Source: a virus. Taken from it: a stretch of 27,272 nt of DNA. The stretch covers positions 1 to 27,272 of IMG/VR virus record IMGVR_UViG_3300046733_000140; one strand, given 5' to 3'. Positions 1-9,610 of this stretch are shown here, piece after piece; position 1 is the stretch's first letter, and every line of letters begins with the position of its first letter. A program made the translations under genes and the position numbers. The notes below the pieces were generated by a model, which was not told the DNA's origin, searched no databases, and saw only the letters and a list, made by a program, of their open reading frames with translations.

Positions 1-983
1 ATATCTGTAGTGAGATTACATTACACACAGATGAAAGTCATAGCTTTGTTTGTTGCTTATCAAGTTTAAATATATCAAGATATGAAGAGTGGAAGAATAC
101 AAACCTTATATACGATGCTATTTGGTTCTTGGACGGGGTGCTTGAAGAGTTTATACAGAAAGCGAAAGGCAAGGTTGGCTTTGCAAATTCAGTTAGATCA
201 GCGGAAAAAGGTAGAGCGCTTGGCCTTGGAGTATTGGGCTGGCACACGTACCTACAAAAAAATGGAATACCCTTCGAGGGATTAACAGCACAATATGAAA
301 CTAGAAGAATATTTAGCCAGATTAAAATCGAATCTGAGCGAGCGAGTAGAGATCTCGCTGAACTTTATGGTGAACCTCTGTGGTGCGTTGGCACTGGGTT
401 TCGTAACACTCATCTTAGGGCTATTGCTCCTACTGTGTCTAATAGTAAGCTTGCCGGTAACGTTAGTCCTGGTATTGAGCCTTGGGCCGCTAATGTTTTC
501 ACTGAACAAAGCGCGAAGGGTACGTTCATTAGGAAGAACAAAGAGCTCGAAAAAGTCTTAAGAAAAGCTGGGTTAAATACTAAAGAAACTTGGGATAAGA
601 TAATGGCTGATGGTGGTAGTATACAAGACCTACCGCTAGATGACTACGGTTATGTTAATAAAAAGCTAGTAGTATTATCTGAGCAAGATGATTTAGAAAC
701 TACAGGCTTTGATAAAGTTAAAAACGTGTTTAAAACTTTCAAAGAGATTAATCAACTAGAGCTTGTTAATCAAGCTGGTATACGCCAACAGTATATTGAT
801 CAATCAGTTAGTTTAAACCTAGCATTTCCTTCAGAGGCTACACCTAAGTGGATTAATCAGGTTCACATGGATGCTTGGAAGAAAGGTATAAAGACCTTAT
901 ACTATATGCGTACTGAATCAGTACTACGTGGTGACATTGCTCAACAAGCTATGGATCCTGACTGTGCTGCTTGCGACGGATAA
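1..983 (+). CDS. nrdA: Ribonucleoside-diphosphate reductase class I, large (alpha) subunit, C-terminal part (5' end outside window)
   Basis: Reduces ribonucleoside diphosphates to deoxynucleotides in the cytoplasm, with a beta (NrdB) subunit not seen here, and so feeds phage DNA replication. The frame is open from base 3. It begins I-C-S-E-I and the split first codon ends in AT, which fits the active-site N-x-C-x-E (E. coli N437, C439, E441). The thiyl-radical Cys is at 6-8. The partner redox Cys of VCCLSSLN is at 51-53 (E. coli C462). Further on are the family blocks VGTGFRN, IAPTVSNSK, SPGIEP and the radical-transfer pair LYYMRT. The protein ends DCAACDG, the swinging C-terminal CxxC pair. 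About 327 codons remain against about 325 from N437 to the end of E. coli NrdA, so the 3' half is intact. It is the only rightward gene and converges on the structural block. Family identity is near certain; the beta subunit and start lie outside the window. Confidence 0.96.
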   Translation, partial: ICSEITLHTDESHSFVCCLSSLNISRYEEWKNTNLIYDAIWFLDGVLEEFIQKAKGKVGFANSVRSAEKGRALGLGVLGWHTYLQKNGIPFEGLTAQYETRRIFSQIKIESERASRDLAELYGEPLWCVGTGFRNTHLRAIAPTVSNSKLAGNVSPGIEPWAANVFTEQSAKGTFIRKNKELEKVLRKAGLNTKETWDKIMADGGSIQDLPLDDYGYVNKKLVVLSEQDDLETTGFDKVKNVFKTFKEINQLELVNQAGIRQQYIDQSVSLNLAFPSEATPKWINQVHMDAWKKGIKTLYYMRTESVLRGDIAQQAMDPDCAACDG

Positions 984-1030
984 CTGTAAAAAAGAAGGGG
1001 ACCTCGCTATGAGATCCCCTTCGGTTACAG
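984..1030 (-). terminator. Intrinsic terminator between convergent nrdA and the structural block
   Basis: A 12-bp stem runs from 994-1005 to 1011-1022, arms GAAGGGGACCTC and GAGATCCCCTTC, with a 5-nt loop. The single imperfect pair (C/A on the + strand) becomes a G-U wobble in the leftward RNA. On that strand the stem is followed at once by six Us (complement of A988-993). It is therefore a canonical rho-independent terminator for the structural operon. On the rightward strand the stem is followed by GGTTAC rather than a U-run, so it should stop nrdA transcripts less well. Weak outer pairing (CTGTAA 984-989 with TTACAG 1025-1030) extends the dyad. Confidence 0.88.
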
Positions 1031-1069: not shown

Positions 1070-1147
1070 TTATTTATATTTTTTAAACATTAATTTATAT
1101 AGTAAACTATTCCAAGCTGCTTGTAACTTATCTATTAATCTCCGCAT
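1070..1147 (-). CDS. Candidate 25-aa amphipathic peptide, unknown function
   Basis: A very short frame, MRRLIDKLQAAWNSLLYKLM followed by FKKYK, starts inside the last codons of the 135-aa gene (overlap about 13 bp) and stops about 50 bp before the operon terminator. Overlapping start and stop is the pattern used by the other genes in this block, and the peptide would fill the otherwise empty interval. It has a basic N-terminus, alternating hydrophobic and charged residues, one Trp, and a Lys-rich tail, so it could form an amphipathic membrane-active helix. There is no Shine-Dalgarno sequence, and an ORF this short can arise by chance. I do not recognise a family. Confidence 0.33.
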   Translation of the reverse strand: MRRLIDKLQAAWNSLLYKLMFKKYK

Positions 1148-1542
1148 GGCTTTCCTGTTGCAACGTTAATCCAATTTTCTTTTTCAAACCAATCACGTAG
1201 TGTAGCTCCTTTCTTACGAGCACCCTTTACGTTTGATTTACTAGAGCGTTTATACTTACCAGACGCAGCAGCAGATCTTTTAGCTCTAACAACTTTATCT
1301 CTTTCAGCTTTGCTCATTGATCTTACCTTTGAAGCGGGTAGACATACTTTCTTAGTACCTCCACCTTTTACTTTAGATTTTTTATTTAATGGTGATCTTA
1401 GCTCGGCTGCATTAGCTAAAGCTTTGTCGTTGCCGGTACCGACACCATAAGCTGAAACTCTTTGTCTCATATTATTAGTCTCCGGGCTATGCAATACGCT
1501 TGCGTAGCAATGTGCTAAAGGACTTTCGTTTAACTTTCTCAT
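1135..1542 (-). CDS. Small very basic phage protein with C-terminal LRDWF...WINVATGKPCGD motif
   Basis: A 135-aa Lys/Arg-rich protein whose middle (KKVCLPASKVRSMSKAERDK, then a GKYKRSSKSNVKGARKKG stretch) and C-terminus (LRDWFEKENWINVATGKPCGD) resemble small proteins common in marine phage and large-virus genomes. Some of these are grouped as DUF5872, though that assignment is from memory. Two conserved Cys and the high positive charge suggest a nucleic-acid-binding or virion-associated protein; the function is not known. The ATG at 1542 overlaps the stop of the upstream gene in ATGA, suggesting translational coupling. An internal Met at residue 25, just before QRVSAYGVGTGND, is an alternative start that would keep the conserved part. 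It is near the promoter-distal end of the leftward block. Confidence 0.75.
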   Translation of the reverse strand: MRKLNESPLAHCYASVLHSPETNNMRQRVSAYGVGTGNDKALANAAELRSPLNKKSKVKGGGTKKVCLPASKVRSMSKAERDKVVRAKRSAAASGKYKRSSKSNVKGARKKGATLRDWFEKENWINVATGKPCGD

Positions 1543-1775
1543 TTGTCTAGTTTTTTCATTGCCTTGTTTCTAGCACACGCCATTTTTTTAGCGTAGCTAG
1601 GATTTTTCTTTTTATTAAAAGCTATTTGCTGATTTAAACTACCAACAATTTTCTTTTTATTTCCTTTACGACTTTTAATTAACCAGTTAGCTAAGTCACC
1701 ACAGTTTAAATTTTTAAACTTACCATTAGCATCCGGCGCGTCAGAGTCTTTCCACTCAAGCTTTTCTTTTGCCAT
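1539..1775 (-). CDS. Small conserved phage protein, SLNQQIAFNKKKNP family, unknown function
   Basis: A 78-aa protein beginning MAKEKLEWKDSDAPDANGKF and ending in a basic helix. The pattern of an N-terminal DAPDANGKF, a central LANWLIKSRKGNKKKIVGSL and then QQIAFNKKKNPSYAKKM is one I associate with recurrent uncharacterised proteins of marine phages. It probably folds as a helical, positively charged domain; no catalytic motif is visible. It overlaps the upstream 58-aa gene by 20 bp and the downstream 135-aa gene by 4 bp (ATGA). This places it in a translationally coupled cluster of small basic genes after the giant internal virion protein. A virion or DNA-binding role would be guesswork. Confidence 0.78.
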   Translation of the reverse strand: MAKEKLEWKDSDAPDANGKFKNLNCGDLANWLIKSRKGNKKKIVGSLNQQIAFNKKKNPSYAKKMACARNKAMKKLDK

Positions 1776-1932
1776 TACAATCTTGCATGTTTATAAACCA
1801 ATTAGCAAGCTGCTTATCTCTACTAGTAGCTTCACGCCTGGTTTTTAGTTTCTTAACTTTACTACAAGTAACATCACCTCCGTATAGTTTATTTATACGA
1901 GCTTTTAAAACTCCTCTATACGCTTTAGCCAT
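1756..1932 (-). CDS. 58-aa basic protein, unknown function
   Basis: The frame starts at ATG 1932-1930 and ends at TGA 1758-1756. The product begins MAKAYRGVLKARINKLYGGD and continues through TCSKVKKLKTRREATSRDKQ to LANWFINMQDCNGKRKA. The LANWFI stretch echoes LANWLIKSR of the next gene, so the two may be distantly related or bind the same partner. The start overlaps the stop of the 51-aa gene in TAATG, and the end overlaps the 78-aa gene by 20 bp. This spacing, together with the filling of an otherwise empty 160-bp interval, is the main support for its being real. Two Cys residues and about 30 percent Lys+Arg are notable. I do not recognise the family. Confidence 0.62.
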   Translation of the reverse strand: MAKAYRGVLKARINKLYGGDVTCSKVKKLKTRREATSRDKQLANWFINMQDCNGKRKA

Positions 1933-2087
1933 TACTTCTTTTTCTTATTACCAAATTTACTAGGCCCACCAGCTTTAGTACAACGCACGCCCCAACCTGA
2001 GGCATATGCCGATGGCCATACTTTAAATTTCTTTTTTGCTGCGGCCTTACAAGGTCCGCTTATCTTTCCATATAGTGGTGATCCCAT
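1932..2087 (-). CDS. 51-aa basic protein with WPSAYASGWGVRC motif
   Basis: The frame runs from ATG 2087-2085 to TAA 1934-1932. The product contains GKISGPCKAAAKKKFKVWPS followed by AYASGWGVRCTKAGGPSKFG and a Lys-rich end. The core K-F-K-V-W-P-S-A-Y-A-S-G...R-C-T-K-A-G-G is a pattern I associate with small proteins of marine phages and large algal viruses, so this is very probably a genuine gene despite its size. Two Cys and a strongly basic composition suggest a nucleic-acid-binding or small structural protein; the function is unknown. It starts 2 bp after the stop of the 2506-aa gene and overlaps the next gene in TAATG, so all should be on one transcript. Confidence 0.75.
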   Translation of the reverse strand: MGSPLYGKISGPCKAAAKKKFKVWPSAYASGWGVRCTKAGGPSKFGNKKKK

Positions 2088-2089
2088 AA

Positions 2090-5000
2090 TTACTTTATTT
2101 TAGATTTTTTATATTTAGATGTAGACTTTCTAGGTTGAGGTTTATTACTAGGTTTTTCCTCGTCAACGCCGATTTCCCAGTCTTGCCAACCACCTAGCAA
2201 CGCTAAGCGTTCCCAAGTTTCTAGATCCTGTGATGTGGCTTGTACTACGTTGTTGGTTTTCTTTACAGCTCTATCAAGCGGTATATTGGTAAGCGCTGCT
2301 ATAACATTAGCACCTGCTAAGTAAGCTGGGTTATCTAGGCTCCAACCTTTTTCTATCATTTCTTTTTTATCCCATTGGTAAGACCTCGCGGCTTGGTTTA
2401 CACGCGATAGCTTAGCAGATATAGGTGGAGATAGTTTAGTAAGTTCATAACCTACTTTCTCAAGCTTAGGTTGTTTCTTTTCCATCTCGTTTATAATACG
2501 TATAATAGCATTTTTACCTACTGAAACTACAGCGCCGCCTAATCCCATACCTCTAAGCAGTGAGTCCATCATACCGTTAGCTATGCTAACATATTTCTTC
2601 TGCTGCTCGTCTGTATCTTCTTCATCATCATCAAAAGCAAACGCAAACAAAGCTTGTTGTAAAGCGTTAAACAATAAGTTCTGTGCCACACCGTAGTATA
2701 TAATCTTACTTATATTAGTCTTAGCATCACCCCTGCCATTCTTAAGATCGCTAGCAGCTTTCTTTATAAGTCTAGCATACTGAGCTGGCGTGTTAGCAAA
2801 AGCCAATACAAGACGTCCTAATTGACCAGCTTGTTGCATTGATATCCTATCAGGTCTTGACGACTGTTGCGACTCTTCTGCTGTCTCTCTAAAATCTACA
2901 AATGCTTGAGCTTCAGCCTCAGTATCTGTCATACCTTGTTTTTTCAAAGACTTTATTCTATTACGATAAAACGTAGCGCCGCCTGATGCTATAGCAAAGC
3001 TATCTGCTATCTGTGTAGGCGTAAAACCAAACTCAAGTAGTTTATTTATAACACCTCTAGCCCCACCTCTCTTTGCCATGTCTGCAATATCAGCTTCGTT
3101 GACGTTGATACGTAAACCACCACGACGTTCTTTTAAGAAGTCAGAGTTAATAAGCGTCATAAAGTCAGACCAGTATTGTTTTTGGTTTGCAAAAGCTTTA
3201 CCCGCAGCTAGTATATTATTATCAGTGAAGTTAACAAAGTTAATACTAGATATAGTTTGTAGCAATGCTGATCTTGTATTAAAGAACATTATGGTACCAA
3301 TACTACCTGTAAGCCAGTCAGTAACTCTACCTGTTAGCGTATCGCCTTGGAAGTTTCTATTACGACCAGACTTCATACGTTGTAACATATTTTCCATAGC
3401 TTTACGATATGGTTTACCATAAGCAGCTTCAAGTTTGTTTAGGTTTTCTTCGCTGAATATTTCATCTGCATTAGCCTGCCATTGTTCTAAAGCTTTAGCG
3501 CGTTTAATAGTATTTAAACCTTCAAGCATATCAGTTGTAATAGTACCTGCTGGCCAACCTTCTTTAGGTCCAGCGTACTGATCACCTTTCTGTATATACA
3601 TTAGTTGATCTGCAAAAGTTTTTAAATCTTCTTTACCTTCTACAAAATCAGACAAGTCTTGCATATCTGCTTCGCTAATACCCGGAACAGACATACCTTG
3701 CTTTTGCCATATATAAACTCTTACAGCTTGCTCTTGAGTAAACGGTTCGCCTGGAACTTTCTTACGTAAATCTTTTGGTACAAGCTTAAGCTCTTTTTTC
3801 AAAGCTTTATAATCGTTCATCATAGCTATACGGGCTGATGATAATTCATTCATTGCTTTACCATACGGATCTAGTAAATTCTTTTTATACCACGCCATTT
3901 GAGCATCACCAAGTTTACCTTTAGCAAGTGTTGAGTATAACAAACCTGTAAAGTCTTCAGCTGATGGTGGTATAAAGAACTGGAACCTACCTTTGTTAGC
4001 TCCAACTACTTCTGCCTTAACACGCTTGTATCTTTTCTCAGATGCAATACCTGTTTTAACTTCTAGTATATCATTAAATTCTTTGTTAAGATCAAGACTA
4101 TCGTAAAACTGTTTATTAGCTTGTTTAGCATCAGCGTCTAGATTAGACATGTTATCTAACGTGTTAGGCATTGATTTTCTAAGACTTGATTTTTCTCTAG
4201 TAGGTCCAATTATTTTAGAATTATTTACTACAGAAGCTTTTTGTCTAGATAAATTTCCAACATCAGAAATTCTACTACCAGTCGCGTCAACATTATAAAT
4301 ATCAAAAACACTTTTACCACCTGTAAGCTTTATAGTGTTCGGATCTATTCCAAACCTATTACTAGCTACATCCATGTTGAAATATCTAGCCCAAATATTG
4401 TCTGTTATCATCCAGCCCTGAGGCGTTTGATCTATATAATCAAAAAACTTTTCATCTATATCAGATATACCTTTAAGTTTTTTATCATTTGTTTTTGATA
4501 GTGGTCCTTGAAAATAATTTTTTCTTACTCCTTCAAAAGCTTTACTAACAGAACCATCAAGAGCTTGAACAAATAAATACTTACCAACAATTGTAGCTGG
4601 AAGCGTATGCTCTAAAGTATTTTGACTTGAGCCAGTGTCCATGTAACCTTCCTCGTAAAATCTATAAGGCGCTGCTGTTCTTAAAAAATGACCTTGGCCA
4701 TATGAGCTAGAAGAAAGTAAAGCACCTGTAAAAGCAACTCCATCAAAGTTCATAGTACCGTCTGAGTTTCTCATTACATCATTTTGTAATATTTCAAACA
4801 ACCTACCTAGTTGATCTATAGAATCATCTTGTCTTTGAACAAAAACAGGATCATTTAAAGATTTATCTAGTCTAAGTTTTTGACTATAAACCCCTTCTTT
4901 TTTAAGCATAGCCGCAAATCCTGGTGAATCTTTTTCACTAGCAAAGTTTTCTAAACCAGTTTCATCAATCCACACTTGTGCTTCTTCAGTGTTTTTAAAA

Positions 5001-8000
5001 GGTAAATTACCAGTGTACTCTCTTAAATCACCTAAAATATCTGACTCTGTAAAAACTGTTTTATAAGCATCTGGATCTTGTTCTTTTAATTCTTTAATAT
5101 CTTTAAGCGTTAAAGCGTTTTCAGTTGTAAAAGCTAAAGCTCTCCAAAAACTTGGTGGTGTTTTTTTAGTAAAGCCACTATCAACAGCAAATTGTAAAAA
5201 TCTTTCTCTACCTTCTGGTGTCTTCATGTTTATTTTTTTAACACCAGTACCTTTTAATATTTCTGTTAAAGTCTTGTTGTAATCTATATTATATGAAGCA
5301 AAGTCTGTGTCTGCGTTTATTTGACCCATAAAAACATTTGGACTAACTCTTCTAAGCGAAGCAGCATCTTTAGATTTACCAGCACCTGTATCTGCTTGCT
5401 CTTGTTTTGTTGCCTGCTTGCCTCTTCCAGCTGCGTTAATAGCATTAGCTAAATATGTCTTAGCAAAACCCGTTAAAGTAGTACCATATTTGCTTCTATT
5501 TTCAGCAGATATTTTTTTATTAGGTACACCAGACTCGGTTACACCTACGTCATCTTGTATTTGTTTAACTACTTCGTTGCTAACTCTACCTGTATATTCA
5601 GGTTTAAGCTCATACACCTGTGTTTGTGTAGTTAACCCTAAACTTCTACCACTCGCGTTAGATATACCTGGTATAGCTTCGGTAACAGGTTGGTAGTATT
5701 TATTAATAAATTTAGTTGATAAACCTATAGATTTACCTTTAAACCCTTTAGAAACGTCTATAGTTTCACCCTGCTCGTTTATAACTGTTTCACTACCAGC
5801 AACATTATACGGTGGCATTGTTTTAATAAGCTTTCTAACGTTGTTAGGGTCAACAAATAATCTTTGTAAAGACTTAGCTTCTCCATCTGTTAATGTAGCT
5901 CTACCTCGTATTTTTTTACCAGGAACATTAAACACCTTAGTAGAAACTTCATCTAAGTTTTGTTCAGCAAGCTCTCTAAATGAAGGTTTTTCACCTTGTT
6001 TTATTGTAACAATATTATCTATGCTTACACCAGCGGCTGGCCCAAAGGTTCTAGAATCAATAAGCTTTTTTGTGGTTGTTTTCGGTTGTGGTGTAGAAGT
6101 TTCTTCAGCAGCAATACCTCTGGCTTCTGTTATATCAGCAGCTTGAGTTCTACCACCTATAGTCTGAGCTCTTTCTAATATCTCAGCTTGTCTTGGCCCT
6201 AATGTGCTACCTATAAAAGTATTTACTTGAGAAGTTTCAGGGTTATAAGTATCAAATAAAGCTGTGCCTCTGCCTGGAAATATACCTTGAATTTGTTCTG
6301 TAACAGCTTCTTTAACAGCATCCATAGGTATACTACCGGTTGGGTTAAATTTAACAGCTTTACTTATTACAGGCCAATTTTTTTCTACAACAGCCTCAAT
6401 AGCACCAAATTTATCCTCTTGAGTAGATGATGGGGATTTAACTACATCAACTAAACTTTCATTAGTAAGTATACCTTCATCTACTAAGCTTATAAACTCT
6501 TGTCCTTTAGGTGTTCTTAACGATGCTGATTCTGTTGAGCCAGTTGTTGTTTCAGTTGTAGTCTCTGTTACTAGTTTACCTTTAGCCCCTTCAGTCGCTA
6601 CTGCCTTAGCAGCTTTACCCAAGCCTTTACCTTTTTCTATAGTAGTATTATAGTCTCTAATAAAACTTAATACATCTTTACCAGAATTAAATTTAATACT
6701 CAACACGCCAGCATCTCTTAAAAACTTACGCACGTAGTTACCTATTTTAACCAATGTACTTTCTTGTATAGTTATACTTCCATCGGACAGAGCTTCACTT
6801 GTAAGATTTAAAACTTCTTCCATTGTTTCAGCCTCTGTTTTTCCGGCTCGTACATAGTCTAAAAGTCTTTTTTGAAATGCAGGATTATTTATTTTAACTT
6901 TAGGATTATTGTTTAATTCTTCTAACAAAGATTTCCCAAACGCTATAGCAGCTTTTGGGTTATTAGCAAAGGTCTGCCGCGTTAAAGGGTGTAATACTTC
7001 ATGCTGATCCGTTGTATAAACATTATCTTCTTTTGCAATTTGCTCGTTTATAACTATAACAGTAGAGCCATCATCTAAAGTATAAGCATTACCATAACTA
7101 GCAGACGCTGATACATTAAGATTTTTATTTTCTTTTCTTAATTGTTCTTTTCTAGCATCAACTTCTTCTTGAGTTTGATATCTTTCAATAGGTTTAATAC
7201 CTAATTGCTCTGCTATCACGTCAGCTCCAGTAGCTGTTTTAGCTTTTTGAGTTTTAGCTATAGCTTCAGCAACCGGCTGTTGTGATCTAGCTATTCTATT
7301 TAACTCTTCGTTTATTGTTTCTATGTTGTTTAACTGTTCAACAGCAAGAGCTTTATCTGTTTGCTTGACTTCTTTTTCAAGTTTATCTCTTTCTAATATA
7401 AGATCATAAGATCTTTGTTTATCTTGGTTAGAAAAATATTCAGGTATTTTCATACCAGTATTACGAGCGTTAGCAAGTTCTTGTGATTGCTCACTATACT
7501 CTTCTTTGCTTATAATGCCTTGATCTCTAAGACCAGCTAAGCTAGATTCAGCTTCTTTAAAAAACCCGTCAACAAGTTTTATTTGCTTTGCGTCTCTTAA
7601 ATTAAACTTAGTAGATACATCTCTTGCCATAGCCCTAAGCTCTATGCCACTTTGACCAGCCACTCTACCACTAAATGGTAATATAGTACCAACTAAACCA
7701 CCTTGTTGAGCCGCTGTTTTGATCTCTGAAGGATCTATAAATGTAGCTACAGGTAAATCAAGCTGTACTGCTGTACTAACTTGGCTTAAACCAGTTTGCG
7801 CGCCTTCTGTAATAGCTTCGCTAAAACCACCCATTGCTACTGATTTAGCTTTTTTAGGTAACTGCGTAGCAAATTTTTTCATTTCACCTTTATATAAAGA
7901 TGAAGTTGCTTTTTTAAAGTCAGTGCCAAGGCCTATACCTTTGGTAAAACCTTTCATTACTTGAGTTGCGCCTACTCTTTCTAGACTAGCTTGAAGAGCA

Positions 8001-9610
8001 GCAAAAGCAGCTGACTCCGCTCTGTTAGCGTAGTTACCTTCTTCAACAGCTTTAGCTATGTTTTCAGGCGTGGGTTTTATACCGTCTTGTTCTAAACCTT
8101 TAGTAATAGCATCATAATAATTACCACCATATTCTTGAGCAAATATAACAGCTAGACCCATACCACCACTTACAAGACCTGTCAAACCAGCCGCTGTAAC
8201 TTGTGGTAAAGCTTCACCTAACCCTATCATAGCCCCTTCAAAAGTAAGGTTATCAAAATCAGCTTCTTTAAATAAACCTAACTCTTCTTCTTTTTCTGAT
8301 ATTTTACCTACTTTATCTACTATTCTTTTTACTCTATTGTCTTTTCTATCATTTAAAGTATTTAACCTTTCACGTACTGTAATTTTCATACGTCTATTTA
8401 AAGGATCTGTGATTTCAGAATCTAAAGTTAAATTACCACTGTCTATTTCTGTTTGAAGTTTATTAATATCGCTGTTAATAGAAGCAACTTGTCCATGAAA
8501 CTTACTTAAGTCAGCTTGATTAAAACCTAAAGACATTTGTTTAACACCTTTAACAGTACCTTCGATTAAAGCAAACTCGCTTAAACCTCCTTCATCTAAA
8601 AAAGAATGTTGGGCTCTAGCGTATTGTTTATTTTTATCAGCTAATATAGACTCAGAAACATCTAAGTATTGAGTTTGTAATGACTTAAATAAATCAGAAT
8701 TTTCAAAAGGTACTAAAATTTCTTCTTGTATATATTTATCTACATCTGAATTAGCTAACGCTAGGTTTGCTTCAAAAGTTTCAGGATTAGAAAAATCATA
8801 TTTATCTTTTAAGCTTTCTTGATATTCATTTACTTTATCAGCGTTTAATTTTACTTGCGCATTTAAAGCTGTACGCATAACAGGATCTTTACTAAACGCC
8901 TGCGATCTACCTTGGTTTAATGCTTGTGCCCATTCTTCAGGAGTATCATACATTTCCATATCGCTAGGCATGTGCGATTCTACCATACTTACAAATTCTT
9001 TAGTAGGTTCTATTTCGTAAGTATCTGTGTTTTGGTTATAAACTTTTTTATTATAATTAGGTTTAGCTATTACCTTATCAACTAAATTTAATCTTTCTTC
9101 CTGGGTGTAATCAGCAAAGTTTTCAAACTGGCCTTTCGCATTTATTAAATCATTTAAAGCAACGTTGTAGTCAGCAACTTGTTTGTTTAAGTCTCTTTGA
9201 TCTCCGTAAACAAACTCACCTTGATCGTCTACTTTTCTAACAGGTTTTGTTATTTGTTCAGAAGCATTATATACATCTTGCCTTATATCTTCAGCTAATC
9301 TGCCTTTTTTTCTTTCTTGTCTAAAATAACCTTGATCATTTGCTTGTAATTCCCCAGAAGTATCTACCGAGTCTGATACCGTACTCTCGGGTGCTTGCCC
9401 GGTTACCGGTGTTGCAGTTGCACCCTTTGCCACAGCACCGTTTGTCTTTCCCTCTGTAGGGCCAGTTTGTATTTCTTCTGTAACTTCTACAGTTTCAGCA
9501 AACTCAGCTTTACGCTTATCTACTCTACTCTGTATTTCTTCTGTAGATAAACCTTGAGTTGTTAACTCATCAACCAAAGACTTTAATTCATTTATCTGAT
9601 CCTCGTTCAT
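2090..9610 (-). CDS. Giant internal virion / ejection protein (2506 aa) with HEVLH zincin motif
   Basis: At 2506 aa this takes more than a quarter of the window. It is the third and largest of a 251/538/2506-aa series after the tail genes, like T7 gp14-gp15-gp16, so it is probably a capsid-internal protein ejected with the DNA. In order: a charged low-complexity N-terminus (about 1-110); a Gly/Ala-rich hydrophobic stretch (about 461-497); HEVLH at 870-874, the zinc-metalloprotease HExxH signature; a segment (about 1055-1150) that faintly resembles sigma-70 region 2; a long region without recognised motifs; and a C-terminal part (about 2050-2320) with GGATFYRNRIK, QQSSRPDRIS and LAFANTPAQY, blocks I associate with marine-phage polyproteins. 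A hydrophobic stretch leading into an acidic run follows, then a basic tail. There is no transglycosylase motif like that of gp16. The gene is certain; the role is inferred from position and size. Confidence 0.85.
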   Translation of the reverse strand: MNEDQINELKSLVDELTTQGLSTEEIQSRVDKRKAEFAETVEVTEEIQTGPTEGKTNGAVAKGATATPVTGQAPESTVSDSVDTSGELQANDQGYFRQERKKGRLAEDIRQDVYNASEQITKPVRKVDDQGEFVYGDQRDLNKQVADYNVALNDLINAKGQFENFADYTQEERLNLVDKVIAKPNYNKKVYNQNTDTYEIEPTKEFVSMVESHMPSDMEMYDTPEEWAQALNQGRSQAFSKDPVMRTALNAQVKLNADKVNEYQESLKDKYDFSNPETFEANLALANSDVDKYIQEEILVPFENSDLFKSLQTQYLDVSESILADKNKQYARAQHSFLDEGGLSEFALIEGTVKGVKQMSLGFNQADLSKFHGQVASINSDINKLQTEIDSGNLTLDSEITDPLNRRMKITVRERLNTLNDRKDNRVKRIVDKVGKISEKEEELGLFKEADFDNLTFEGAMIGLGEALPQVTAAGLTGLVSGGMGLAVIFAQEYGGNYYDAITKGLEQDGIKPTPENIAKAVEEGNYANRAESAAFAALQASLERVGATQVMKGFTKGIGLGTDFKKATSSLYKGEMKKFATQLPKKAKSVAMGGFSEAITEGAQTGLSQVSTAVQLDLPVATFIDPSEIKTAAQQGGLVGTILPFSGRVAGQSGIELRAMARDVSTKFNLRDAKQIKLVDGFFKEAESSLAGLRDQGIISKEEYSEQSQELANARNTGMKIPEYFSNQDKQRSYDLILERDKLEKEVKQTDKALAVEQLNNIETINEELNRIARSQQPVAEAIAKTQKAKTATGADVIAEQLGIKPIERYQTQEEVDARKEQLRKENKNLNVSASASYGNAYTLDDGSTVIVINEQIAKEDNVYTTDQHEVLHPLTRQTFANNPKAAIAFGKSLLEELNNNPKVKINNPAFQKRLLDYVRAGKTEAETMEEVLNLTSEALSDGSITIQESTLVKIGNYVRKFLRDAGVLSIKFNSGKDVLSFIRDYNTTIEKGKGLGKAAKAVATEGAKGKLVTETTTETTTGSTESASLRTPKGQEFISLVDEGILTNESLVDVVKSPSSTQEDKFGAIEAVVEKNWPVISKAVKFNPTGSIPMDAVKEAVTEQIQGIFPGRGTALFDTYNPETSQVNTFIGSTLGPRQAEILERAQTIGGRTQAADITEARGIAAEETSTPQPKTTTKKLIDSRTFGPAAGVSIDNIVTIKQGEKPSFRELAEQNLDEVSTKVFNVPGKKIRGRATLTDGEAKSLQRLFVDPNNVRKLIKTMPPYNVAGSETVINEQGETIDVSKGFKGKSIGLSTKFINKYYQPVTEAIPGISNASGRSLGLTTQTQVYELKPEYTGRVSNEVVKQIQDDVGVTESGVPNKKISAENRSKYGTTLTGFAKTYLANAINAAGRGKQATKQEQADTGAGKSKDAASLRRVSPNVFMGQINADTDFASYNIDYNKTLTEILKGTGVKKINMKTPEGRERFLQFAVDSGFTKKTPPSFWRALAFTTENALTLKDIKELKEQDPDAYKTVFTESDILGDLREYTGNLPFKNTEEAQVWIDETGLENFASEKDSPGFAAMLKKEGVYSQKLRLDKSLNDPVFVQRQDDSIDQLGRLFEILQNDVMRNSDGTMNFDGVAFTGALLSSSSYGQGHFLRTAAPYRFYEEGYMDTGSSQNTLEHTLPATIVGKYLFVQALDGSVSKAFEGVRKNYFQGPLSKTNDKKLKGISDIDEKFFDYIDQTPQGWMITDNIWARYFNMDVASNRFGIDPNTIKLTGGKSVFDIYNVDATGSRISDVGNLSRQKASVVNNSKIIGPTREKSSLRKSMPNTLDNMSNLDADAKQANKQFYDSLDLNKEFNDILEVKTGIASEKRYKRVKAEVVGANKGRFQFFIPPSAEDFTGLLYSTLAKGKLGDAQMAWYKKNLLDPYGKAMNELSSARIAMMNDYKALKKELKLVPKDLRKKVPGEPFTQEQAVRVYIWQKQGMSVPGISEADMQDLSDFVEGKEDLKTFADQLMYIQKGDQYAGPKEGWPAGTITTDMLEGLNTIKRAKALEQWQANADEIFSEENLNKLEAAYGKPYRKAMENMLQRMKSGRNRNFQGDTLTGRVTDWLTGSIGTIMFFNTRSALLQTISSINFVNFTDNNILAAGKAFANQKQYWSDFMTLINSDFLKERRGGLRINVNEADIADMAKRGGARGVINKLLEFGFTPTQIADSFAIASGGATFYRNRIKSLKKQGMTDTEAEAQAFVDFRETAEESQQSSRPDRISMQQAGQLGRLVLAFANTPAQYARLIKKAASDLKNGRGDAKTNISKIIYYGVAQNLLFNALQQALFAFAFDDDEEDTDEQQKKYVSIANGMMDSLLRGMGLGGAVVSVGKNAIIRIINEMEKKQPKLEKVGYELTKLSPPISAKLSRVNQAARSYQWDKKEMIEKGWSLDNPAYLAGANVIAALTNIPLDRAVKKTNNVVQATSQDLETWERLALLGGWQDWEIGVDEEKPSNKPQPRKSTSKYKKSKIK

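Follow-up and report, generated by a model that had tools for sequence, protein, structure and literature searches.

The 27,272-base virus record IMGVR_UViG_3300046733_000140, which was analyzed over its whole length and is called the window below, carries on its minus strand a single long late operon that encodes a terminase, a portal protein, a capsid protein, further genes, and a 2506-amino acid (aa) protein, and that ends in a cluster of small genes (Table 1). The preliminary description of the window had placed overlapping tiny basic genes at this end of the operon, and four frames (p51, p58, p78, and p135) plus a 25-aa frame (p25) were indeed located there. The overlaps along p51-p58-p78-p135-p25 are 1, 20, 4, and 13 bp rather than the 3-20 bp given in that description. 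Its remark that the products are rich in Lys and Arg agrees with isoelectric points (pI) of 10.1-10.5 for p51, p58, p78, and p135, while its count of three genes with paired Cys was too low, as all four named genes have a pair, which is conserved in most relatives. p51 has no acidic residue at all and contains a WPSAYASG core at about 1995-2018. p135 is composed of an N-terminal add-on (residues 1-54, about 1381-1542) and module F (residues 55-135, about 1138-1380), and holds the pair Cys67/Cys133 in module F plus a third cysteine, Cys12. The add-on was represented by 26 distinct sequences versus 126 for F, and has one conserved cysteine.

Table 1. Small genes at the end of the late operon, followed by the features around them (positions in the window)
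Feature	Position	Strand	Basis or setting
p51, module A; 51 aa, pI 10.4, Cys13/Cys36	1932..2087	-	open frame, relatives
p58, module C; 58 aa, pI 10.5, Cys23/Cys52	1756..1932	-	open frame, IMG/VR relatives
p78, module E; 78 aa, pI 10.1, Cys25/Cys67	1539..1775	-	open frame, IMG/VR relatives
p135, N-terminal add-on and module F	1135..1542	-	open frame, IMG/VR relatives
p25, basic 25-aa peptide; 13-bp overlap with the end of p135	1070..1147	-	open frame, conservation
2506-aa late gene	2090..9610	-	directly upstream of the array, 2-bp gap
Terminator-like hairpin, 12 pairs and then a T run	994..1022	-	closes the late operon
nrdA-like ribonucleotide reductase gene (3' end)	3-983	+	converges on the late operon across the terminator

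Pattern scans of IMG/VR gave 158 (p135), 403 (p78), and 225 (p58) confirmed relatives. The best 80 of each scan were kept and the module statistics given below therefore describe the closer relatives; one contig may stand under several locus identifiers. When 84,980 genome species were scanned with the p135 profile, two relatives only were confirmed, both on contigs of metagenome-assembled genomes; one such contig is assigned to Saprospiraceae. By tblastn against the fetched loci, we obtained 149 (p51), 95 (p58), 108 (p78), 152 (p135), and 15 (p25) distinct plus-strand stretches, identical and minus-strand stretches being left out of the selection analysis. The pooled ratios of nonsynonymous to synonymous differences (pN/pS) were 0.26, 0.24, 0.31, 0.27, and 0.25, respectively, and the small genes are thus more strongly constrained than the neighboring 2506-aa protein, for whose C-terminal 506 residues the pooled ratio was 0.45. 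The three closest relatives of p51 differ from it by 8, 8, and 14 synonymous changes and by no amino-acid change. Among the 12 closest pairs listed for each protein, the ratio of nonsynonymous to synonymous substitution rates (dN/dS) was 0-0.19 for p51, p58, and p135, and 0.05-0.17 for p78, barring values of 0.32 (L085, 5 differences) and 0.27 (L074, 47 codons). For p25, it was 0.05-0.15 in the ten closest pairs, and 0.51 and 0.59 in two partial 18-codon matches. Stretches with a stop inside the match were few (p51, 5; p58, 3; p78, 0; p135, 3; p25, 0), and these stops sit at the natural end of the gene or upstream of its start. Checks for stops in relatives and for coding constraint had both been proposed in the preliminary description, and neither spoke against the frames: the stops lie outside the genes, and the pooled pN/pS stays at 0.24-0.31 across all five. 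Purifying selection, relatives whose genes have no internal stops, and many relatives in IMG/VR together indicate that the four named frames are real genes and rule out chance frames; selection of the same kind is indicated for the fifth. p25, found in 11 of the 80 p135 loci and sited away from the array in one of them (L010), is probably a small gene as well. Genes so short are easily overlooked or left as "hypothetical".

Comparison of these loci indicates that the cluster is part of a set of about ten modules that are combined in various ways, with an order that is fairly constant. The preliminary description had suggested a search for conserved synteny in viral metagenomes, and the module order A-B-C-D-E-F proved to be well kept among the IMG/VR relatives, with G-J as additional modules and single modules coming and going. 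Among the 80 kept p135 loci, F was present in 80, A in 71, E in 35, and C in 21; the further cassettes were B (15), D (20), G (30), H (25), I (24), and J (11). In total, 83 architecture strings were recorded, a number inflated by cut contigs and not de-duplicated by contig. Of the 70 loci with a match to p51, 57 had a best-segment identity of at least 85%. The modules are mostly separate overlapping genes, with fusions in one frame of B=A, C=D, and F=H. Because most adjacent module genes overlap or nearly touch (142 of 217 pairs overlap and 182 are spaced by -30 to +15 bp), translational coupling is suggested. Some arrays contain inserted genes, namely one for a PhoH-like ATPase, recognized by eye (L050:3584-4267), and ones for PAP2-like phosphatases (L019:5947-6465, Pfam PAP2 E 7e-6, just under the cut-off; L052:3110-3649, by eye).

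The LANWxI core that the preliminary description had seen in both p58 and p78 corresponds to a likeness above shuffles (hhalign score 19.0, with 60 column shuffles reaching 15.7 at most; probability 12%; gappy rows left out). Because it spans 6 aligned columns only, it is too short to be called homology, and the idea that p58 and p78 are paralogues was dropped.

A conserved cysteine pair is present in modules A and C-J, while B has no such pair. Counted over distinct domain sequences, with identical sequences and gapped cells dropped, both cysteines were present in 113 sequences of A (3 had the first only), in 118 of F, in 53 of D (9 had neither), and in 68 of E (20 had neither and 1 the second only). 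For C, 56 sequences had both, and 11 further rows lacked the first cysteine and were gapped at the second; G had both in 36, and a second pair in 11 with 24 lacking it; and all sequences of H (49), I (47), and J (14) had both. Because the two cysteines are nearly always kept or lost together, we infer that they may form a disulfide or another mutual contact. Zinc fingers were considered and rejected, since each module has two cysteines and the four alignments have no histidine in an invariant or nearly invariant column. Modules A and C-H had mean net charges of +9.4 to +24.3. The model of p78 was helical with a mean predicted local distance difference test (pLDDT) score of 77, and that of p135 was weak (pLDDT 67). 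A fold search with the p78 model gave no PDB match at E<=0.001, and that against BFVD gave uncharacterized viral relatives only. Sequence matches in PDB to P-II and leucocin (E 0.012 and 0.088) were taken as chance.

The modules are also found in cyanophages. p51 matches phrog_727, a T4-like cyanophage protein (E 2.1e-7), and the profile of module A matched cyanophage proteins at 3.2e-14 (S-RIM2), 2.1e-14, and 1.6e-18 (S-SM1); with another search program, A was found in all three of three cyanophage records. By tblastn, the S-RIM2 protein has relatives in 521 phage records. The kin of phrog_727, including S-RIM2 ORF101, S-SM1 SSM1_115 (T4-GC119), and P-SSM2 gp114, have modules A, H, and K in common with one another, together with a permuted F; every one of these modules contains two cysteines, and the proteins are encoded in the late region. 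They differ from the window proteins in being a single long chain, where the window has separate genes, and in having an extra, cysteine-less WHPDP module. When ten cyanophage proteins were aligned, they appeared as strings of beads made of F-like, WHPDP, A, K, and H modules, not every module being present in each. Modules C, D, and E were not found in the cyanophage gp114-type protein. The window array belongs to the gp114/phrog_727 module set through its homologous A and F. A B-like stretch was noticed by eye in the ACG-2014b protein.

In the F-like module of the cyanophages (F'), the two halves of F stand in swapped order. With rows of five or more gaps dropped from the alignment (126 to 116), the single F profile aligned over 20 columns with a score of 44.0, and two head-to-tail copies of that profile aligned over 56 columns across the join with a score of 69.4, the maximum among 100 column-shuffled doubled profiles being 19.3. 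Because the doubled profile aligns across the join far above the shuffles, the alignments indicate that F and F' are circular permutations of each other, in a rearrangement that keeps both cysteines. Furthermore, one array (L133:5233-5508) has a separate gene right after E, in the usual F slot, with the halves of F in cyanophage order, and the same array also holds a cyanophage-type A.

In the ten cyanophage proteins, the motif [LIVFM]xE occurs within 14 residues upstream of the modules in 35 of 41 distinct contexts (mean of 2000 shuffles 15.3, maximum 24), and [LIV]xE in 27 (mean 11.2, maximum 20). The strict T4 motif [LI]xE occurs in 10 of the 41 (mean 4.4; 7 of 2000 shuffles as high), and the overall motif density in S-SM1 GC119 is ordinary, at 1.8 per 100. 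A possible reading is that a prohead protease cuts the gp114 beads before the modules, and this stays a suggestion because the broader motif was picked after inspection of the data and because the ten proteins are relatives of one another.

Virion data come from these cyanophages; statements on published work here refer to the accessible parts of the cited papers. A scan of the whole S-CREM2 record gave two module-bearing proteins, gp160 (F', K, and A) and gp137 (H), and both are in the virion table of 52 proteins, with 7 and 4 unique peptides, respectively (PMC10665884). Out of 29 DNA replication and metabolism open reading frames in S-CREM2, that table has one, Cas9 (PMC10665884). In the S-SCSM1 record, S-SCSM1_29 (SSCSM1_29; F', A, K, and H) is the only clear module-bearing protein, and it carries the GenBank label "virion protein", which we take to derive from mass spectrometry by the authors; a weak 18-residue match to B (iE, the independent E value, 0.0044) in a gene not so labeled is probably chance. 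Proteins with A, F, and H are thus listed for S-CREM2 and one is labeled in S-SCSM1, in data that do not distinguish the inside of the particle from the outside. Between its capsid and tail genes, P-SCSP1q has a frame that shares 65% identity with a portion of the H module of cyanophages; our H profile did not pick it up. Next to gp137, S-CREM2 encodes gp136 (L264:12302-13015, that is, S-CREM2 107301-108014), a protein of 237 aa with 53 Lys and Arg residues, no cysteine, and no modules, which is also in the virion table with 8 peptides.

We tentatively propose, with slightly less than even confidence, that the products of the cluster are small basic modules that are made late, are carried in the virion, and most likely contact the packaged DNA in the manner of the T4 internal proteins. 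Late overlapping synthesis, positive charge, a variable accessory make-up, and the virion data for relatives fit proteins carried with the DNA, and the physical linkage of modules in the gene fusions B=A, C=D, and F=H and in the cyanophage bead proteins also favors this reading, as do the place of the genes before the terminator-like hairpin, purifying selection, and the paired cysteines. The genes would be transcribed as the last part of the late operon, and their overlapping arrangement may allow coupled translation. The modules would then be incorporated into the particle, as homologous modules reported in cyanophage virions suggest; by extension, we infer a virion location in the window phage. 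Judging from charge, a surface rich in Lys and Arg might neutralize DNA, and the cysteine pair, conserved as a pair, might close a disulfide or similar link, possibly after release into the oxidizing outside. More speculatively, the modules may accompany the DNA into the cell on infection. The preliminary description had offered a set of small DNA-binding or virion-core proteins, which is borne out in part: the conserved basic late set is real and homologous modules are listed for a cyanophage virion, while DNA binding or condensation and capsid filling by the window proteins are conjectural. The whole records of elemoA 7-9A and MW202828, which are two of the nearest isolates, gave no A, C, E, or F module; the array is therefore dispensable for this kind of particle, and its absence there counts against the proposal. 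The A3 profile recovered its target in all four positive controls, profile G matches both isolates, and profile I matches MW202828. Because their composition varies between viruses and near relatives do without them, the modules form an accessory set and not a component of the shell.

Several further observations weigh against the proposal. The virion reports concern cyanophages, with none for the phage group of the window or for modules C, D, and E. In S-CREM2, 12 of the 13 hypothetical proteins of at least 250 aa are by our count listed as detected, so that finding gp137 and gp160 shows their presence but is no statistical surprise, and the authors caution that virion-associated regulatory proteins might have been carried over through CsCl (PMC10665884). 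Nor is the S-SCSM1 label proof of detection, because we counted 48 such labels versus 45 in the paper (PMC9602691), one of them on a translational repressor. For S-CREM1, 14 virion proteins are reported (PMC9964418) and for S-SM1, 41 (PMC3037559), and the accessible parts of these sources do not show whether the module proteins SCREM1_179 and T4-GC119 are among them; the S-SM1 authors describe T4-GC119 as a hypothetical gene of a carbon-metabolism cassette (PMC3037559). We dropped the idea that the label "hypothetical" marks absence from the S-SM1 virion, as T4-GC969, which is reported as detected, has the same label. The shell of P-SCSP1u consists of the major capsid protein alone (PMC10575957). 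Neither sequence searches nor the p78 fold search gave a credible PDB relative. B (+4.2), I (+4.7), J (+2.6), and the p135 add-on (+6.2) are only weakly basic in mean net charge, and a cysteine pair is missing from B as well as from the WHPDP module of the cyanophages. In the tree of E, the forms without cysteines represent one event (support 95/85), which discards the notion of many independent paired losses and leaves few independent tests of the pairing.

The modules could instead be virion-carried effectors that act early in the new host, in anti-defense or take-over, with a cassette mix that reflects hosts and their defenses. The virion data for relatives, the differing composition of related viruses (again with the strings inflated by cut contigs), and the precedent of T4 IPI, an inhibitor of a restriction enzyme (PMC9026906), agree with this idea; however, the strong conservation, exemplified by p51 as above, is unlike that of typical arms-race proteins, no fast evolution was seen, and none of the matches of the modules in Pfam, PHROGs, or NCBIfam was informative (PADLOC was not searched), and we consider the idea unlikely. 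Just as improbable to us is that they are non-virion late helpers, basic proteins that work on DNA or RNA in the infected cell during replication, packaging, or late expression and contaminate virion preparations. In the cyanophages examined, the gene for the fused protein is at most three genes away from terS or terL, a terL or portal gene on the same strand follows downstream of the array in 18 of 80 loci, and the carry-over caution of the S-CREM2 authors (PMC10665884) would apply, but the ribonucleotide reductase and DNA polymerase subunits of S-CREM2 are not in the accessible virion list, while gp160 and gp137 are. A very unlikely role is that of disulfide-stabilized external cement or neck and tail proteins. 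Although their late operon position, cysteine pairs that suit an extracellular setting, and the name "structural protein" given to the fused protein in the RB11-B cyanophage record would be compatible with it, the accessory distribution is not what such a role would lead one to expect, the strong positive charge would suit DNA better than cement, and P-SCSP1u has no decoration proteins in the published account, though its relative P-SCSP1q has the H-like frame beside the capsid gene.

The proposal of DNA-contacting virion proteins can be extended, and we regard the extension as quite improbable, to a shuffling two-cysteine toolkit of protamine-like virion proteins in otherwise unrelated marine phages (Cellulophaga/elemo podoviruses, T4-like and T7-like cyanophages, module-G phages, and possibly giant algal viruses). 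The toolkit would be made either as separate coupled genes or as a bead string cut at [LIV]xE by the prohead protease, its modules would be fused, swapped, and circularly permuted around the cysteine pair, and the pair would become oxidized only once the particle has been released, its reduction in the new host then setting the DNA free.

Each T4 internal protein is a basic protein of about 8-20 kDa that is present in about 300 copies and packaged together with the core, and many of them are ejected; there are several per phage, dispensable on standard hosts and DNA-binding at low salt (PMC9026906). The window proteins resemble IPI-IPIII in being small, basic, and several different per phage, and with 25-135 aa, pI as given above, and a place in the late operon they agree with this class as small basic late proteins. 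They differ in that T4 internal proteins are cleaved by the gp21 protease (PMC9026906), whereas p51-p135 are separate small genes, and family searches gave no sequence relation, the T4 sequences themselves not having been compared directly. A similar design is found in ascovirus P64, a DNA-condensing virion protein with repeated two-cysteine units (PF08793) and basic stretches (PMC6163548). However, P64 belongs to an animal virus, and PF08793, the virus-specific 2-cysteine adaptor, was not among the E<=1 matches of the four window proteins, which leaves an analogy only. Two of the T4 internal proteins still have no settled role, and the modules, should they condense DNA or be injected, would represent a widespread counterpart to this class in marine phages.

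Families related to the modules are already in databases without a function, and our limited literature searches found no paper joining them. p51 matches Pfam DUF5872 (PF19197) at 17.6 bits (E 0.0059), under the gathering cut-off of 27.5; 29 of the 41 members of alignment A3 match at E<=0.01 (best 0.00094), and module A resembles DUF5872 positions 10-43. A DUF5872 protein appears as a table entry in the accessible part of a haptophyte virus genome paper, so that a protein of this family occurs in an algal virus. DUF6321 (PF19846; cut-off 28.5 bits) matches none of p51, p58, p78, and p135. That cut-off was passed by neighbors in arrays elsewhere, namely module H in L019 (47.9 bits) and a neighbor in L036 (31.6 bits), while module G in L022 reached 16.9 bits and stayed under it; the H module is absent from the window array. 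DUF6321, DUF5872, and the named PHROGs carry no recorded function, and our full-text searches gave no paper for DUF6321 or DUF5824. The link to the cyanophage fusion protein gives DUF6321, the DUF5872-like modules, phrog_727, and phrog_7595 a common, testable virion role. In a phage collection, tblastn with p135 and with the E consensus gave no match, C and D not having been run there; for p58 and p78 (C and E) no isolate homologue was found, C having been searched in the two isolates only and E in both these and the phage collection.

The terminase, portal, and capsid proteins of the window match PHROGs 6681, 6547, and 13704, respectively. The terminase is 63% identical to that of the unclassified podovirus MW202828 and 51% identical to that of the Flavobacterium elemoA phages, and also matches those of Cellulophaga, Tenacibaculum, and Maribacter phages; therefore, the window phage is taken to be a marine podovirus of the Cellulophaga/elemo kind, probably with a Bacteroidota host. 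The nearest isolates infect Cellulophaga and Flavobacterium. The 2506-aa protein gave no match in Pfam at its cut-off or in NCBIfam at E<=0.01. It contains an HEVLH stretch that looks zincin-like by eye, and elemoA gp21 (3694 aa) and MW202828 741-12320 occupy the same operon end, both being longer. A similar protein is encoded on the same strand in 38 of the 80 p135-bearing loci, and 24 loci have neither it nor terL or portal within the stretch examined. A hairpin scan found 3 terminator-like sites in 1.4 kb vs 1.3 (standard deviation 1.1) in shuffles, the site at 1022-994 being the longest. The same convergent nrdA-like gene is present in 31 of the 80 p135 loci.

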